This document shows positions 2 through 5,886 of a stretch of 64,000 nt of DNA, in pieces. The notes under the pieces were generated by a model, which made no database searches, had not been told where the DNA came from, and saw nothing but the letters and a program-made list of their open reading frames with translations. This stretch comes from Candidatus Gastranaerophilales bacterium. GTDB taxonomy: Bacteria > Cyanobacteriota > Vampirovibrionia > Gastranaerophilales > Gastranaerophilaceae. The position numbers and the translations under genes are program-made. The DNA lies in assembly GCA_944324305.1 (NCBI GenBank), contig CALUVV010000009.1:1-64000 (forward strand), in the 5' to 3' direction. How positions within the stretch are numbered: position 1 is the first letter of the stretch; every line of letters begins with the position of its first letter.

Positions 2-1342
2 GGCACCAATTCTTTATGGTACGGTAACGGTGACGGTAATGTAGCCATCGGAGCTAATTCGAATTATAGAGATAAGACCTTAACCAATTTTACGAACACA
101 ACCGCAATAGGTTTTTCCTCTTATGCCGGTGGTACCGGTTCTGTGGCTGTTGGGGCAAATTCTTCTACTTTAAATGCAAAAGCAATAGCCATAGGTAATT
201 CAACTGCCATCGCTGACAGTTCTATATCAATAGGCGAAAAAACAACATCTTCAGATGAGAATGCAATTGCCATGGGTTCCGGTTCAATATCCTCCGGAGA
301 CGCTTCTTTATCTTTGGGCAGTTGGTCGGAAGCAACAGGTTATCGTTCAGTTGCAGTTGGACCAAGCGCAGAATCTTCTTCTTATGCGTCTGTAGCCCTG
401 GGTAGTCAATCTGGTGCCAGTGCGAATTATGCAATATCTATAGGAGAATTTTCAAGAGCATCCGAGCATGCAGCTGTCGCAATCGGCGATCAGGCAAAAG
501 CAGAAGGCAGCCAAAGTGTTGCAATTGGACAAAACAGTAAAATAAATGGCGGAAATTTTTCAGCAGCCATAGGGTATTCTGCCGATGCAAGCGGTCACAG
601 TGCTGTAGCTATCGGTAATAATGCAAAGGCTGTTAATAATTATACTACTGCAATCGGAGCAAATGCTTGCCGGTATGTAACAGGGACTAATAAGACCTGT
701 ATAGGTGCTAATTCTGGACCTTCCGATCCCGCCCAGCGTTCAGATTCTTCAACTGAAAGCCTATATTTCGGTTCAGCAGGCACCTTCGTACGTAAAGACG
801 GCCGATACAATTCAGCAGTTAATTCTATATTGGAACTTCATAAACGCGGAGATTATGCTGTGGCCGTAGTTAATGCCGATTTTGTAATTCGAGGCGATTT
901 AATAACTATGCCTCGTAAGAAATCTGGCGGCCGCGATGCTCGTTATGGGGGTATGAGGACAAAGTACATTGATAACCAGATAGAATTTGATAATATAGGT
1001 GATCCAACTGAAAGCTTTTTCTCTGATCGTCGTTTAAAATATGTTGGAAAAGAGAACCTTTCAGGTTTGAAAAAAATACGCCAATTAAAGGTTTTTAATT
1101 ATACGTTTAAAAAAGACGAAACAAAAACACCTCATGTCGGTGTAATCGCTCAGGATTTGCAAAAAGTCTTTCCCGATGCAGTCAAAAAAGGTACAGACGG
1201 GTTTTTAACAATTCGTTTTGAAGATATGTTCTTTGCAATGATAAATGCAATCAAAGAACTCGATACCCGCATGAGCGCACTGGAAAAAGAAAACCGTGAA
1301 CTTAAAATCCGTATAGAAAAACTTGAAACAAAAATAAAATAA
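2..1342 (+). CDS. YadA-like head repeat surface protein with C-terminal S74 chaperone domain (5' partial)
   Basis: The reading frame is open from the window edge, so the N-terminus is missing. Most of the visible protein is short repeats of the AxAIGxxAxA type, the left-handed beta-roll of YadA/Hep_Hag heads. The C-terminal ~110 residues start with SDRRLK (nt 1022-1039), the Ser-Lys autocleavage site pattern of intramolecular chaperone (peptidase S74) domains, followed by GVIAQDLQKVFPDAV and a terminal coiled coil. In phage tail spikes this domain trimerises the fibre and then cuts itself off. There is no YadA beta-barrel anchor at the C-terminus, so attachment must use the missing N-terminus or another protein. 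Likely a trimeric surface fibre; the partner is unknown. Confidence 0.8.
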   Translation, partial: GTNSLWYGNGDGNVAIGANSNYRDKTLTNFTNTTAIGFSSYAGGTGSVAVGANSSTLNAKAIAIGNSTAIADSSISIGEKTTSSDENAIAMGSGSISSGDASLSLGSWSEATGYRSVAVGPSAESSSYASVALGSQSGASANYAISIGEFSRASEHAAVAIGDQAKAEGSQSVAIGQNSKINGGNFSAAIGYSADASGHSAVAIGNNAKAVNNYTTAIGANACRYVTGTNKTCIGANSGPSDPAQRSDSSTESLYFGSAGTFVRKDGRYNSAVNSILELHKRGDYAVAVVNADFVIRGDLITMPRKKSGGRDARYGGMRTKYIDNQIEFDNIGDPTESFFSDRRLKYVGKENLSGLKKIRQLKVFNYTFKKDETKTPHVGVIAQDLQKVFPDAVKKGTDGFLTIRFEDMFFAMINAIKELDTRMSALEKENRELKIRIEKLETKIK

Positions 1343-1587: not shown

Positions 1588-2775
1588 ATGGGAAACGAAA
1601 AAATCAACTCAACAGACTATAATGAATTGTACACACAGTACAATTGGTTTGCCAATGCTTATCCGCCTGTTGTACAGGCTTCAAGTGATGAATTTTTTCT
1701 CCCAGGTTTAAAATTTATTTTAATCGGTATAAGCAAGAATATTAATACATTAATGGATAAAGATGCTTATTTTGTAACCAAAATACGTATAGATAAACTC
1801 CATGATATGTTTTTCAGAACATCCGAAAAAGCTATCGGAATTATACTTGACAGAGCTTTAGGTAAACCGAATTCAAGATTTAACCTGAACAAACTTACTG
1901 ATTTGGAAGCTAAAATTATTACCGCATTTAATGACTATATGTTCAATGCGACTTCCCGATTTCTAATCCCGCCCCCGCCTGCATTGAAACGTACAAATTT
2001 CGATGTGGTGCATTTAACTTTTTTATTGAAAGATGTTGATACAAATGCTGTGGCAAAGTTTATAATTACTTTGCCGGATGTGCTTTTAAACCCTGAAGCC
2101 GTAACATCAAAAGGTGATAAATTTGATTACGGCGATTTTGCGTCAAGCATAATTGATGTGGCTGTTAAAGTAGGCTCTACAAGATTTAAACTTATAGATA
2201 TTAAAAATATCGAAGTTGATGATATTGTAGTTTTTGATAACAGCGATACAAAACACATGGTTCTTAGATTTAAGGATTATGAAAAAGATATTAATTTAAA
2301 CCCTAATTTGGGACTGGTTATGCCGGTGGATAACGATGGAGGAAATAACGATATGGCAGGAGAAAATACTAATCTTTGGGACAGTATAGAAGTTGAAATG
2401 AATGCTCAATTTGATACTGTTAAAATTACTCTCGGCGAATTAAAAAAGATTGAGGAAGGGTTGGTTGTTGACCTGACATCCATATATGATAATAAAGTTA
2501 CATTAAGCGTAGAAGACAAGCCTATTGCGCGCGGAGAACTTGTTATTGTTAATGACAGATACGGAGTTAAAATAGATGAGGTTATTGCTAAGACGCCTAA
2601 AGCCGAAAATAATCCGAATGCTGTACCGCAGCAGCAGGCTGTCCCTGCAGGTTCGGATTTTGCGGATGAAGGAGCTGCTCCTCTCCCGCAGGAAAATAAT
2701 ACAGCCGCTCAGCCTGCAGATGAAGAAGATGAATTTGACTACAGTGACTTTGAGCTTGAGGATGAGGATATATAA
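1588..2775 (+). CDS. FliM/FliN or SctQ-like C-ring protein with two SpoA domains
   Basis: 395 residues. The N-terminal ~180 residues are helical and CheC/FliM-middle-like, followed by a degenerate SpoA domain (about 187-245), a clear SpoA domain (about 262-335, including LWDSIEVEMNAQFDTVKITLGEL) and an acidic, Pro/Gln-rich tail. SpoA domains build the cytoplasmic C-ring of flagella and type III secretion systems. Two SpoA domains in one chain is the SctQ layout, or a FliM-FliN fusion. It heads a run with fliO, fliP, fliQ and fliR, so it is almost surely part of that machine. No filament or needle gene is in the window, so flagellum versus injectisome is open. The acidic tail is unusual. Confidence 0.75.
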   Translation: MGNEKINSTDYNELYTQYNWFANAYPPVVQASSDEFFLPGLKFILIGISKNINTLMDKDAYFVTKIRIDKLHDMFFRTSEKAIGIILDRALGKPNSRFNLNKLTDLEAKIITAFNDYMFNATSRFLIPPPPALKRTNFDVVHLTFLLKDVDTNAVAKFIITLPDVLLNPEAVTSKGDKFDYGDFASSIIDVAVKVGSTRFKLIDIKNIEVDDIVVFDNSDTKHMVLRFKDYEKDINLNPNLGLVMPVDNDGGNNDMAGENTNLWDSIEVEMNAQFDTVKITLGELKKIEEGLVVDLTSIYDNKVTLSVEDKPIARGELVIVNDRYGVKIDEVIAKTPKAENNPNAVPQQQAVPAGSDFADEGAAPLPQENNTAAQPADEEDEFDYSDFELEDEDI

Positions 2776-2795: not shown

Positions 2796-3167
2796 ATGAG
2801 TACTTATTTACTAAATTTCATAGTTTATACGGCGGCAATGGTCGGAATTATTTTTCTGGCTGTTTTTGTGTATAAAAAGTTCTCTTGCTGCGCTTCTTCA
2901 AAATCAAAATTTTTAAATGTTGAAGAATGTATAAGCCTTGCACCGAGAAAAGAGCTTTATGTTGTCAGGGCGGGAAATGAAAGGTTTCTTGTCGCATCGG
3001 ATGTGGGAAGAACTTCTTTAATTTCAAAACTCGATGACAATTCTTCTTTACCTGTGAAAAAACAAAGTGAAAGCAGTGTGGATGAACTGCCGGTAATAGT
3101 TGATTTCCCGAGAACTTCTCATAATTCGCAGAAGAAAGTTTTCAAAAATATAATAAATAACATTTAG
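2796..3167 (+). CDS. fliO: FliO-like export gate assembly protein
   Basis: 123 residues: one N-terminal membrane helix (about 5-27), then a short cytoplasmic domain with EECISLAPRKELYVVRAGNERFLVASD, the small beta domain seen in FliO. FliO is a scaffold that helps FliP assemble in the inner membrane. The call leans on position between the SpoA gene and fliP and on the fold pattern, because FliO sequences are poorly conserved. A GGAGGG ribosome site precedes the ATG. Confidence 0.7.
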   Translation: MSTYLLNFIVYTAAMVGIIFLAVFVYKKFSCCASSKSKFLNVEECISLAPRKELYVVRAGNERFLVASDVGRTSLISKLDDNSSLPVKKQSESSVDELPVIVDFPRTSHNSQKKVFKNIINNI

Positions 3168-3177
3168 AGGAATAAAA

Positions 3178-3819
3178 ATGGATACGATAATAAAAGATAT
3201 GAACCCTGTATTGCAAATGCTGATATTAATGACTGTATTCTCGTTAATACCGTTGGTTTTTTGCTGTATGACAAGTTTTTTAAGATTTGTCATAGTATTT
3301 TCAATGCTTAAAACCGCAATGGGAACGCAGCAGGTGCCGCCTTCTATTGTAATCGTGGGTCTTGCAATGATTTTGACCTTTTACACTATGGGAGGAACTT
3401 TTCAAAAAATGTATGAAATGGGTTCAGTGCCGTATCACAAAAATCAGAATATTGTCGAGGCTATAAATGAAGGCTCGAAGCCGTTAAAAGAGTTTATGAT
3501 GAAGCAGACAAGAGAAAGCGATCTGGCATTCTTCATTGAGGCTTCAAAGGGACAGCCGCCGAAAAGCCCTGATGAAATTACGGTCTGGCAGGTCGCTCCG
3601 GCATTTATTATAAGCGAGTTAAAAACATCATTTGAAATCGGATTTATAATATTTGTTCCGTTTATCGTATTAGACCTTGTTGTTGCAAATATTCTTCTTG
3701 CATTAGGTATGTTTATGCTGTCACCTACGATTATTTCTCTGCCGTTTAAACTTCTTATATTTATTGCTGTAGACGGCTGGGCGTTAATCGTTCAGGGGCT
3801 GGTAACGAGTTACAATTAA
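3178..3819 (+). CDS. fliP: Type III export gate protein FliP/SctR
   Basis: 213 residues with the family signature: FLRFVIVFSMLKTAMGTQQ near the N-terminus, PLKEFMMKQTRESDLAFF in the middle, and ISELKTSFEIGFIIFVPF plus SLPFKLLIFIAVDGW at the end. FliP forms the pentameric core of the export gate in the inner membrane. It lacks the cleavable signal peptide and long first periplasmic segment of many flagellar FliP proteins, and its length is nearer SctR. The starts, spacing and neighbours show co-transcription with fliO and fliQ. Confidence 0.9.
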   Translation: MDTIIKDMNPVLQMLILMTVFSLIPLVFCCMTSFLRFVIVFSMLKTAMGTQQVPPSIVIVGLAMILTFYTMGGTFQKMYEMGSVPYHKNQNIVEAINEGSKPLKEFMMKQTRESDLAFFIEASKGQPPKSPDEITVWQVAPAFIISELKTSFEIGFIIFVPFIVLDLVVANILLALGMFMLSPTIISLPFKLLIFIAVDGWALIVQGLVTSYN

Positions 3820-3894: not shown

Positions 3895-4383
3895 ATGGAA
3901 GTTTTAGTTGAATACTTAGCAAAAGGATTTTTGATAATGCTGGCAATCTCGATGCCATGTGTACTTGTGGCTGCTGGCATTGGTCTTGTTGTAGGTATTC
4001 TGCAGGCTGTTACACAGGTTCAGGAGCAGACAATTGCGGCAGCTCCCAAAATCCTCGGGGTTTTCCTTGTTATCGTAATCGGCGGTATCGGGTTTATTAA
4101 TATGTTAAAAGGTTTTATGACTGACGGTATGGCAATGGCTTTTAATCTTGTTTCCAAAAATGATTCTTATGTTCTTCCGGCAGATTATTTTAAATACACA
4201 ACGCCTTTTGAACATGAAATGAACGACAAATTTAAAAATCAGCCAACAATAAATGAGATAATGAAAAATCCCGGTAAGGTTCCTTTTATAGACCAGCAGC
4301 AAAAAACAAAATACTATGCAAGTCCGCAGACACCTATGCCTAAACCTAATTTTGTAGAAACAAATCAAATTCTGGGAAGATAA
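3895..4383 (+). CDS. fliQ: Export gate protein FliQ/SctS with a long C-terminal extension
   Basis: The first ~85 residues are a normal FliQ: two membrane helices around GLVVGILQAVTQVQEQTIAAAPKIL. FliQ packs around FliP in the export gate. Normal FliQ proteins are about 90 residues, but this one has 162. The extra ~75 residues are hydrophilic, Lys/Pro/Gln-rich and without a known domain. The ATG is preceded by an AGAGGATG ribosome site. The 75-nt gap after fliP holds a short GAGGCT/AGCCTC hairpin that may tune translation; that is only a guess. Confidence 0.88.
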   Translation: MEVLVEYLAKGFLIMLAISMPCVLVAAGIGLVVGILQAVTQVQEQTIAAAPKILGVFLVIVIGGIGFINMLKGFMTDGMAMAFNLVSKNDSYVLPADYFKYTTPFEHEMNDKFKNQPTINEIMKNPGKVPFIDQQQKTKYYASPQTPMPKPNFVETNQILGR

Positions 4384-4386
4384 CGA

Positions 4387-4725
4387 ATGAAAAAACTTCT
4401 GGTAATACTTTCAATACTTTTAATTCCTCTACAAGCATGTGCGTTTGAGGATTATATCCTGACGTCTGACAAGCCCGTAATTTCTGTTTCTTCAAGTGAT
4501 GAGAGCATAGTTTCAGTTCTGCCGTTTTTTACAATTGATAATAACAAAGATACCATAATTGTCAAAGCCAAAAGAGAAGGTAATGCTGAAATTACAATAA
4601 AACGCTATGATAAAGATGTTGTTGTAAAAGTTAGTGTTACCCCTGAAAAAACTGTTTTTCAAAGCGGTAATGACGTTACATATTTCCCTCTTGATACTCC
4701 CGAAAAAAGCAAAGGGGGTGATTAA
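4387..4725 (+). CDS. Small exported Ig-like protein inside the export gate operon
   Basis: 112 residues with a clear signal peptide (MKKLLVILSILLIPLQACA) and a mature beta-rich domain: KPVISVSSSDESIVSVLPF ... DTIIVKAKREGNAEITIKRYDKDVVVKVSVTP. This pattern resembles the bacterial Ig-like/pilus-assembly N-terminal domains of secretins such as CpaC/RcpA, without a secretin channel. It sits 3 nt after fliQ and 2 nt before fliR, so it is translated with them, yet it is not a standard export gate component. A periplasmic accessory of the export machine is the plain reading; the function is unknown. Confidence 0.6.
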   Translation: MKKLLVILSILLIPLQACAFEDYILTSDKPVISVSSSDESIVSVLPFFTIDNNKDTIIVKAKREGNAEITIKRYDKDVVVKVSVTPEKTVFQSGNDVTYFPLDTPEKSKGGD

Positions 4726-4727
4726 GG

Positions 4728-5507
4728 TTGGAACAGATTATTGAAGAATTGATGAAGATGTTTCCGATGCTTAATGCTTATCTTGCGGCAGGAATATTTA
4801 TTTTTGCCCGCCTTCTGGGATTTTTCAGGCTTGCACCGGTTTTCAATAGAAAAGAAATCCCCGGAATGGTAAAGATTGCTTTATGTTTGCTTTTGACGGT
4901 TATATTAACCTGTGTTGCAAAGCCCGATGTAACAATAATTAAGGAATCGTTTGCTCTTTCAATATTGTTAAATATAGTTGTAGGAGCAATGATAGGCTAT
5001 ATTGCGCAATTAATTCTGCTTGCCGTGGATGCTGGCGGTGATATGATTAATATGCAGATGGGATTGTCTTCTGCAATGGTTTTAGATCCGACTACATCTT
5101 CTCAGGTTTCTATTGTGGGAAAGTGTTTTCAGCTTTTAGGGCTTTTGATTTTTATTCAACTGGGCGGTGTTTACTGGCTTTTGACAGCACTTACAAGAAG
5201 TTTTGAGATATTTCCTCTTGATGCAACAATAATCCCTTTGCAGCAGATTGTAAATATGGATTATATGGTTCAGCTGTCATCAAACGTATTATTTATGGGA
5301 CTGCAAATTGCATCTCCAATTTTGCTTGCGACACTGGGACAGGATATTATTCTCGGTGTAATCTCAAAGACCGCGCCTCAGGTAAACGTATTTCAATTAA
5401 GCTTTCTTTTTAAACCTGTTCTCGGGGCGGCAATAATGGTCTGGATTTTGCCGATGCTTGTTAATATAATATCTGATTACTTTTTGTCATTCTCTAAAAT
5501 TATTTAA
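4728..5507 (+). CDS. fliR: Export gate protein FliR/SctT
   Basis: 259 residues, the normal length, with about six membrane helices and FliR features: IFARLLGFFRLAPVF near the start, GDMINMQMGLSSAMVLDP in the middle and FKPVLGAAIMVWILPML near the end. FliR completes the FliP-FliQ-FliR core through which substrates enter the export channel. The start is TTG after an AAAGGGGG ribosome site inside the end of the preceding gene. It is the last gene of the operon; FlhB/FlhA homologues are not in the window. Confidence 0.88.
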   Translation: MEQIIEELMKMFPMLNAYLAAGIFIFARLLGFFRLAPVFNRKEIPGMVKIALCLLLTVILTCVAKPDVTIIKESFALSILLNIVVGAMIGYIAQLILLAVDAGGDMINMQMGLSSAMVLDPTTSSQVSIVGKCFQLLGLLIFIQLGGVYWLLTALTRSFEIFPLDATIIPLQQIVNMDYMVQLSSNVLFMGLQIASPILLATLGQDIILGVISKTAPQVNVFQLSFLFKPVLGAAIMVWILPMLVNIISDYFLSFSKII

Positions 5508-5886
5508 GATAGTCTTTAAAATAATTGATGTTAATTAGTTCGGCTTCTTTAATCAGATCATTTTCAATCGTAGTCTTCATGTCCTTTTTTATCGGGAATG
5601 AATACGGATCGAGGGCAAAATTAGAATAACATTTTTTATTAAATTTAGCTGTTTTATGAAATAAATTGGGTACTATTTCTTTAACTTTGTATGTAAGACC
5701 GTAATTAAGCGTTGTACCGTATTTGTTTAATGTTTTGTTATGATATTGCTTAATAAATACGTCATAGTTACGGCTCAATGATTGAATTGCTGGTGAATTT
5801 TCAAGAGCTTTTTGAACCTTAGGCGAGACATTTTTGAAATACAGTCCGTTAAAATTTTGGTTGTTATAAGAATTTTTTATTTCCAT
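5500..5886 (-). CDS. Unassigned 128-residue protein
   Basis: No recognised domain, signal peptide or membrane helix. It is Lys/Asn/Tyr-rich, and the N-terminus contains NNQNFNGLYFKN. Its end overlaps the end of fliR by 8 nt in convergent orientation. A small cytoplasmic protein, possibly lineage-specific. The ATG has no clear ribosome site. Confidence 0.5.
   Translation of the reverse strand: MEIKNSYNNQNFNGLYFKNVSPKVQKALENSPAIQSLSRNYDVFIKQYHNKTLNKYGTTLNYGLTYKVKEIVPNLFHKTAKFNKKCYSNFALDPYSFPIKKDMKTTIENDLIKEAELININYFKDYLK

Follow-up and report, generated by a model that had tools for sequence, protein, structure and literature searches.

An exported protein with a predicted Ig-like domain, encoded between fliQ and fliR, is a candidate accessory of a flagellin-less type III secretion gene set in Gastranaerophilales

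In the genome of a Candidatus Gastranaerophilales bacterium (assembly GCA_944324305.1, contig CALUVV010000009.1) a small open reading frame (ORF) lies between fliQ and fliR, two export-gate genes of a type III secretion system (T3SS), which raises the question whether its product belongs to the export machine. We analysed positions 1 to 64,000 of this contig (forward strand), hereafter called the window. The ORF, termed gap ORF, occupies positions 4387 to 4725 on the plus strand and encodes 112 amino acids (aa); fliQ ends 3 nucleotides (nt) before it and fliR starts 2 nt after it. A preliminary description of the locus had proposed an exported immunoglobulin (Ig)-like protein encoded between the two genes with gaps of 2-3 nt, and this was confirmed by the coordinates, by Pfam identification of fliP, fliQ and fliR and by a signal-like N terminus in 67 of 67 gap ORFs. 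The gap ORF is confirmed as a real gene, and export of its product and its genetic linkage are well supported. We propose, with a probability of about 0.5, that it encodes an optional, Sec-exported, soluble periplasmic accessory of a flagellum-derived, flagellin-less T3SS, here named type A, which is nearly universal in Gastranaerophilales.

Conservation of the locus was followed across the order. Altogether, 126 loci (L022-L147) were read and 122 with type A FliQ and FliR were counted, after removal of L141, where no FliQ was found, and of L145-L147, which carry a distant FliR. The 122 loci were our own choice from longer genome listings, not a random draw. An ORF of more than 60 aa was present in the fliQ-fliR gap of 68 of them. 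One of these, L078 (the same record as L251), is a decayed copy in a gap of 246 nt and stands between presence and loss; it was treated as a single copy and scored absent, leaving 67 carriers and 55 loci without the gap ORF. Conservation of the gene order in related genomes, which the preliminary description had named as a point to check, was thus found, with a homologue in the same gap across the order. Carriers occur in families f2-f6 besides f1, and the single f7 genome read is without the gap ORF. Among the named loci, which are the best 80 of 463 found with FliQ, 51 carry the gap ORF, one the remnant and 28 none; these relatives are mostly Candidatus Gastranaerophilales, and a few records, the closest one included, bear other labels. 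Within the genus, all 33 genomes have FliR, and 19 (18 relatives and the window) have a gap ORF homologue, always inside the fliQ-fliR gap. In the other 14, fliQ and fliR are 0-57 nt apart.

Absence from close relatives had been regarded beforehand as a sign of a chance insertion. The gap ORF is indeed absent from 14 of the 33 genus genomes, yet sister genera and further families of the order do carry it, and its absence in close relatives therefore represents loss and not recent insertion. Presence and absence change 15 times on the best tree of the 122 loci, and 10 of these changes are forced by supported branches. Such counts alone cannot separate gain from loss; because carriers span families f1-f6 and the sister genera, we conclude that the gap ORF is old in the order and was repeatedly lost. 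A profile search of 54 empty-gap genomes revealed no relocated copy (best match 5.2e-5, to a 457-aa frame, compared to 1.1e-20 or lower in 4 carriers). Larger fliQ-fliR gaps contained no second gene in the frames read (six frames in L103-L105, three forward frames in L246 and L253).

The gap ORFs form one family. Alignment A1 comprised the window sequence and 60 of the 68 gap ORFs; it excluded the window's own entry (L022), the near copies L034, L105 and L115, the remnant L078, and L125, L129 and L134, which are very divergent (hhalign probability 87, 0.5 and 38%, respectively). Of the 52 named-locus ORFs, 51 were aligned together with the window sequence (A3), and of 80 FliQ sequences 52, again with that of the window (A4). 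In leave-one-out searches with hidden Markov models (HMMs), which excluded the test row and all rows of at least 40% identity over 60 residues (Z 2000), all 67 gap ORFs were recognised at E < 0.01, 65 of them below 0.001. When the family HMM was run against 368 ORFs of the window and ten other stretches, only the gap ORFs of the window and of genome G187 scored; the best of the other 366 reached 0.46. The ratio of nonsynonymous to synonymous substitution rates (dN/dS) was 0.09-0.37 for the gap ORF in 16 pairs, a rough estimate with dS > 1 in 8 of them, and 0-0.046 for FliQ (16 pairs). At the level of codon substitution, these values show purifying selection on the gap ORF. A chance ORF or a recent insertion is ruled out by the order-wide synteny, dN/dS and the family HMM. 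A phage origin was likewise rejected, as a weak PHROG tail-fibre match (E 0.004) was obtained with the window protein only and with none of 3 other members.

Comparison of the window with its closest relative (L189) revealed a divergent patch. Positions 4501-4950 are 80-86% identical and positions 3901-4500 97-100%, while some other patches of the operon reach 84-89%. In the same pair dS is 0.42 for the gap ORF and 0.057 for FliQ. The drop in identity and the difference in dS suggest local recombination at 4501-4950.

The window protein starts with a hydrophobic N terminus that ends in an AxA-like site (signal peptide, residues ~1-19), followed by a predicted beta sandwich of ~70 residues (Ig-like or pil_N-like domain, ~20-87, backed by an AlphaFold2 model, fold comparison and the family HMM) and a short tail. 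An N-terminal hydrophobic segment is present in 67/67 gap ORFs, a second hydrophobic segment in none and a lipobox in one; a lipoprotein was rejected, as the LQAC of the window protein is not a conserved lipobox. The tail of the window protein is of the acid-x-Pro type (LDxP). A hydrophobic-D-x-P motif occurs within the last 50 residues of 58 of the 67 proteins (500 shuffles: mean 7.8, maximum 16). The AlphaFold2 model, with a mean predicted local distance difference test (pLDDT) score of 85.7, contains strands at residues 22-27, 31-36, 42-48, 54-61, 65-73, 77-84, 89-92 and 97-101, and predicts one Ig-like domain. Its neighbours in VIA-align are Ig-like domains of phage tail and S-layer proteins, Big_2 domains and TrwF/VirB9 chains (Z 5.9 and 6.8), with a best Z of 7.8. 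Foldseek searches with the model gave nothing under E 0.001, and the best solved homologue by sequence had an E value of 0.41.

A likeness to the N-terminal domain of secretin-type pilus proteins had also been claimed, and it holds at the level of the family. Pfam matches of the window gap ORF are all sub-threshold (Big_13, E 0.043; T2SS-T3SS_pil_N, 0.091; Big_2, 0.39), the one to T2SS-T3SS_pil_N (PF13629) scoring 12.9 bits against a gathering cut-off of 23. The latter domain was matched at E <= 0.1 by 26 of 61 homologues (best 1.1e-5), and Pfam CagX by 4 of 61 (best 4.6e-5). Moreover, hhalign aligned the A1 family with residues 76-141, in the N-terminal region, of a CpaC-like secretin of relative L164 (probability 80%, E 1.4e-5). 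Profile comparison thus relates the gap ORF family to the N-terminal domain found in a CpaC-like secretin. PF13629 is the N-terminal domain of CpaC/RcpA-type secretins. The gap ORF protein shares with it the small exported domain and the family-level similarity, and differs in that it stands alone inside an export-gate operon, its window member remains under the cut-off, and Pfam finds no secretin domain in the 112-aa chain.

To which machine does the gate belong? FliR was matched at E <= 1e-5 in 284 of 286 genomes of the order, in 281 of them at <= 1e-60, the type A grade. Part of the genomes carry a second, type B FliR, which is 27-32% identical to the window FliR. The FliR proteins of both types fall into separate clades (support 100/99; 38 A and 14 B sequences), with E. 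coli FliR on a long branch on the B side. In none of 14 type B loci do the match positions of FliP, FliQ and FliR leave space for an ORF between fliQ and fliR. A panel of 30 genomes contained 9 with both FliR types, 20 with type A only and one with neither, which belongs to a different family of the class. Flagellin was found in 9/9 two-FliR genomes, in 1/20 single-FliR genomes (G112) and not in the genome with neither; FlgI, the P-ring protein, in 9/9, 0/20 and 0/1, respectively. The two-FliR genomes have two copies each of FliF and full-length FlhA, the 20 single-FliR genomes one of each, and rod-type genes are present in all 29 FliR-bearing genomes. The window genome is of the type A-only class, with MS-ring, rod and export-gate genes, no P ring and 0 matches to flagellin (PF00669). 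It encodes FliE, FliF, a 339-aa protein at the place of FliG, FliH and FlhA (C1) as well as two FlgF/G-like, one FlgB-like and one FlgC-like protein (C6), so that the rod proteins FliE, FlgB and FlgC are all found. Its sole secretin is encoded beside T2SSE, T2SSF and an N_methyl protein in a cluster resembling a type II secretion system (T2SS) or pilus; genome G187 has type A with a gap ORF and no secretin match.

Because type A is a second set and is found in a genome without flagellin, its gate is not the flagellar one but separate from the true flagellum. Consequently, the new periplasmic FliPQR partner of the preliminary description survives as an exported protein at a conserved position with a likely functional link, not as a partner of a flagellar gate. 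Retention of the gap ORF appeared tied to a second FliR (29/32 two-FliR versus 38/90 one-FliR genomes, Fisher p 1e-6), but independent tree pairs gave a median p of 1, and no such association is claimed.

Several further genes were noted. The 339-aa protein between FliF and FliH (L170:12070-13089, minus strand) has no Pfam match over cut-off and a weak one to MgtE_N (E 0.16), and is possibly a divergent FliG. The match of a 492-aa protein (L171:9096-10574, plus strand) to FlhA is confined to the C-terminal half of the latter (FHIPEP 313-654). Of the 29 panel genomes with FlhA, 28 (all but G034) encode a partial FlhA of this kind, and in the window genome its gene has Omp85 and OmpH-like genes nearby. 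The gene that immediately follows type A fliR in G187, in the same orientation, encodes a 577-aa protein with a flagellin domain and a repeat-rich middle (L176:5590-7323, minus strand).

Type A FliQ (3895-4383, plus strand, 162 aa; Pfam 9.4e-18, matching residues 5-75 only) exceeds the 89-aa FliQ of E. coli by ~73 residues, and its C-terminal tail is conserved order-wide in alignments of 33 and 53 sequences. From the hairpin topology, we take the FliQ termini to be periplasmic. The FliQ model (pLDDT 60, tail mostly < 50) is uninformative for the tail. The FlhB loop contacting FliQ lies on the cytoplasmic side according to excerpts of PMC7064499. Type A FliP (3178-3819, plus strand, 213 aa, without signal peptide; Pfam 1.9e-69) exceeds the NCBIfam fliP cut-off and has an N terminus ~30 residues shorter than that of E. 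coli, with 30 instead of 60 residues before the MTSF motif. This distance is 29-31 residues in 81 of the 83 loci with a visible start among the 122 (38 and 47 in the others), 29-31 in 73 of 77 named loci (39 or 47 in the rest), and 68-93 in 14/14 type B FliP. FliR (4728-5507, plus strand, TTG start; Pfam 1.5e-54) has 259 aa. In injectisome SpaP the chain begins at a still shorter distance from the core than in type A FliP. When the window FliP was aligned to solved chains, its residue 13 corresponded to residue 6 of SpaP, and in the 245-aa FliP chains residue 42 was the counterpart of window residue 12. By score, type A FliP is nearer to flagellar FliP (190 vs 135 bits).

Since an exported, secretin-N-like protein is encoded at a conserved position in the fliPQR operon, a functional link between the gap ORF and the export machine is likely. 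Translational coupling may tie the synthesis of the gap ORF protein to that of FliQ and FliR and would then deliver it to the site of gate assembly. The protein would meet the gate at the periplasmic face, where, by the assumed topology, the conserved FliQ tail should also lie, with this tail and the LDxP tail as candidate contact pieces. Docked in this putative way, it could serve a machine that has no P ring and no clear secretin as a scaffold or cap, placed either at the base of the rod or where the machine passes the envelope. Clean loss in many lineages would mark it as optional.

Several observations weigh against the proposed accessory. In the same 18 relatives, the gap ORF protein is 44-82% identical to the window protein and FliQ 74-100%, so that the gap ORF evolves more quickly than the adjacent gene. 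It also looks dispensable, being missing from 55 of 122 loci with the 15 changes, 10 of them forced, described above. These 55 loci show no visible change in FliP or FliQ that would signal a core role: FliP has 29-31 residues before MTSF in 54/55 ORF-less loci (47 in one) and in 27/28 ORF-bearing loci (38 in one) with a visible FliP start, and FliQ, its tail included, is likewise the same with or without the gap ORF. As both are alike in the two groups, nothing shows coevolution of gap ORF and gate. Moreover, Ig-like folds are common (best Z 7.8). Finally, type A is not strictly universal, since G036, G037 and G212 have only a type-B-grade FliR (~1e-24 to 1e-27) and 2 of 286 genomes have none.

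Some of these observations would also fit a protein that never touches the gate, a Sec-exported envelope or surface Ig-domain protein kept in the operon for co-expression only. Frequent clean loss with FliP and FliQ visibly unchanged, faster evolution, the divergent patch at 4501-4950 relative to the closest relative and the generic Ig fold all agree with such a bystander. It would not by itself lead one to expect that the gap ORF is not found outside the gap in the 54 empty-gap genomes, that it overlaps with or lies within a few nt of fliQ and fliR in most carriers, or that its tail motif is conserved, and we consider it doubtful, while giving it some weight. Less credit is due to an envelope link. 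In this reading the domain would assemble into a ring in the manner of a secretin N domain or VirB9 and connect the type A rod with a partner in the outer membrane, in place of the missing P ring or secretin. The profile match to the N-terminal region of a CpaC-like secretin, CagX matches in 4/61 members and the TrwF/VirB9 fold neighbours argue for it, as do the absence of FlgI from type A-only panel genomes, the placement of the window genome's only secretin in a T2SS/pilus-like cluster and the presence of type A with gap ORF in G187, where no secretin was matched. A single domain without a membrane-spanning or outer-membrane part is hard to reconcile with this role, the fold matches are weak and generic, and 55 of 122 loci keep the gate genes without the gap ORF, which makes the envelope link unlikely.

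A reading of the entire type A set as a flagellum in decay, with the gap ORF as its debris, is disfavoured and in our view barely credible. Partial flagella gene sets were reported earlier in the order (excerpts of PMC4040986 and PMC5877343), and one gap ORF copy (L078) has decayed. However, type A occurs together with a second set, flagellin and FlgI in 9/9 two-FliR panel genomes, type A forms a separate clade, its FliR is present at type A grade in 281/286 genomes and FliQ dN/dS is 0-0.046 in 16 pairs.

A more specific form of the accessory may be pictured from the Salmonella gate. According to excerpts of PMC12403130, the periplasmic gate of Salmonella is sealed by a beta-cap to which FliR and, behind a signal peptide that is cleaved off, FliP residues 22-42 contribute; the cap consists of N-terminal strands of these two proteins and involves no separate one. 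Such beta structure at the periplasmic end of the gate marks a possible seat for the gap ORF protein. By an ungapped count, type A FliP has no signal peptide, and of the 21 residues matching Salmonella FliP 22-42 roughly the first 9 are missing; the window FliP has no tryptophan in this stretch. With the first part of the sealing hairpin missing, the gap ORF protein could be a detachable, separately encoded cap or plug which seals the type A periplasmic gate, guides the first rod subunits and is held by the FliQ tail, and type A could be the order-wide secretion system behind the "partial flagella" label. Against it, only part of the cap stretch is missing from FliP, injectisomes are not known to need such a protein, and where the gap ORF is absent FliP has not become longer again. 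A strict trade of a cap in cis for one in trans was rejected on the last ground, and we give the idea as a whole only a slim chance.

Further genes flank the gate genes in the window. Upstream, positions 1588-2775 (plus strand) encode a C-ring protein of 395 aa with a FliMN_C domain as a single gene (Pfam 1.4e-20; NCBIfam fliN and SctQ matches below cut-off), and positions 2796-3167 (plus strand) a FliO-like protein (Pfam 4.1e-7). Just upstream of the type A operon, the product of positions 143-1342 (plus strand) combines YadA-head repeats and, at its C terminus, a Peptidase_S74 (endosialidase chaperone) domain; this stretch aligned poorly in 2 of 3 relatives compared. Downstream, a 128-aa ORF (5500-5886, minus strand) is convergent with fliR and overlaps its end by 8 nt; it is found in many genus members and has no Pfam match over cut-off.

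To our knowledge, injectisomes work without a protein of this kind, and flagella, too, lack such an accessory. With the flagellar T3SS, type A shares a FliP over the NCBIfam cut-off, accompanied within one genome by FliE, FlgB-, FlgC- and FlgF/G-like genes; it differs in the lack of flagellin and P ring in the window genome, the FliQ tail, the short FliP N terminus and the extra exported protein. With the non-flagellar T3SS (NF-T3SS), it shares a FliP that, SctR-like, has no signal peptide and starts close to the SpaP chain start; it differs by a FliP scoring nearer to the flagellar one, by the gap ORF and by keeping FliE, FlgB and FlgC, which excerpts of PMC3459982 treat as flagellum-specific. 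In the same excerpts, Abby and Rocha (2012) describe the NF-T3SS of Myxococcales as early-branching, a stage before secretin recruitment. Type A resembles it in having a gate without motility parts, vertical inheritance and no clear secretin of its own, and by this analogy the Myxococcales system may be taken as the nearest conceptual precedent. For Gastranaerophilales, excerpts of Soo 2014 (PMC4040986) report complete flagella sets in 3/9 genomes and a subset in the rest, from which loss was inferred, and excerpts of a termite-gut study of 2018 (PMC5877343) again mention "partial gene sets", with a fuller set in one genome. In the open-access literature we found no description of a second, flagellin-less T3SS or of a gap ORF gene in the order.

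Taken together, the preliminary description is partly supported. If the proposed accessory of a type A machine is right, gut Gastranaerophilales with "partial flagella" would carry a conserved, flagellin-less, rod-bearing T3SS besides or instead of a flagellum. Type A would then represent an extant intermediate between flagellum and injectisome, with an additional accessory protein, and its substrates and its route through the outer membrane would become direct questions.
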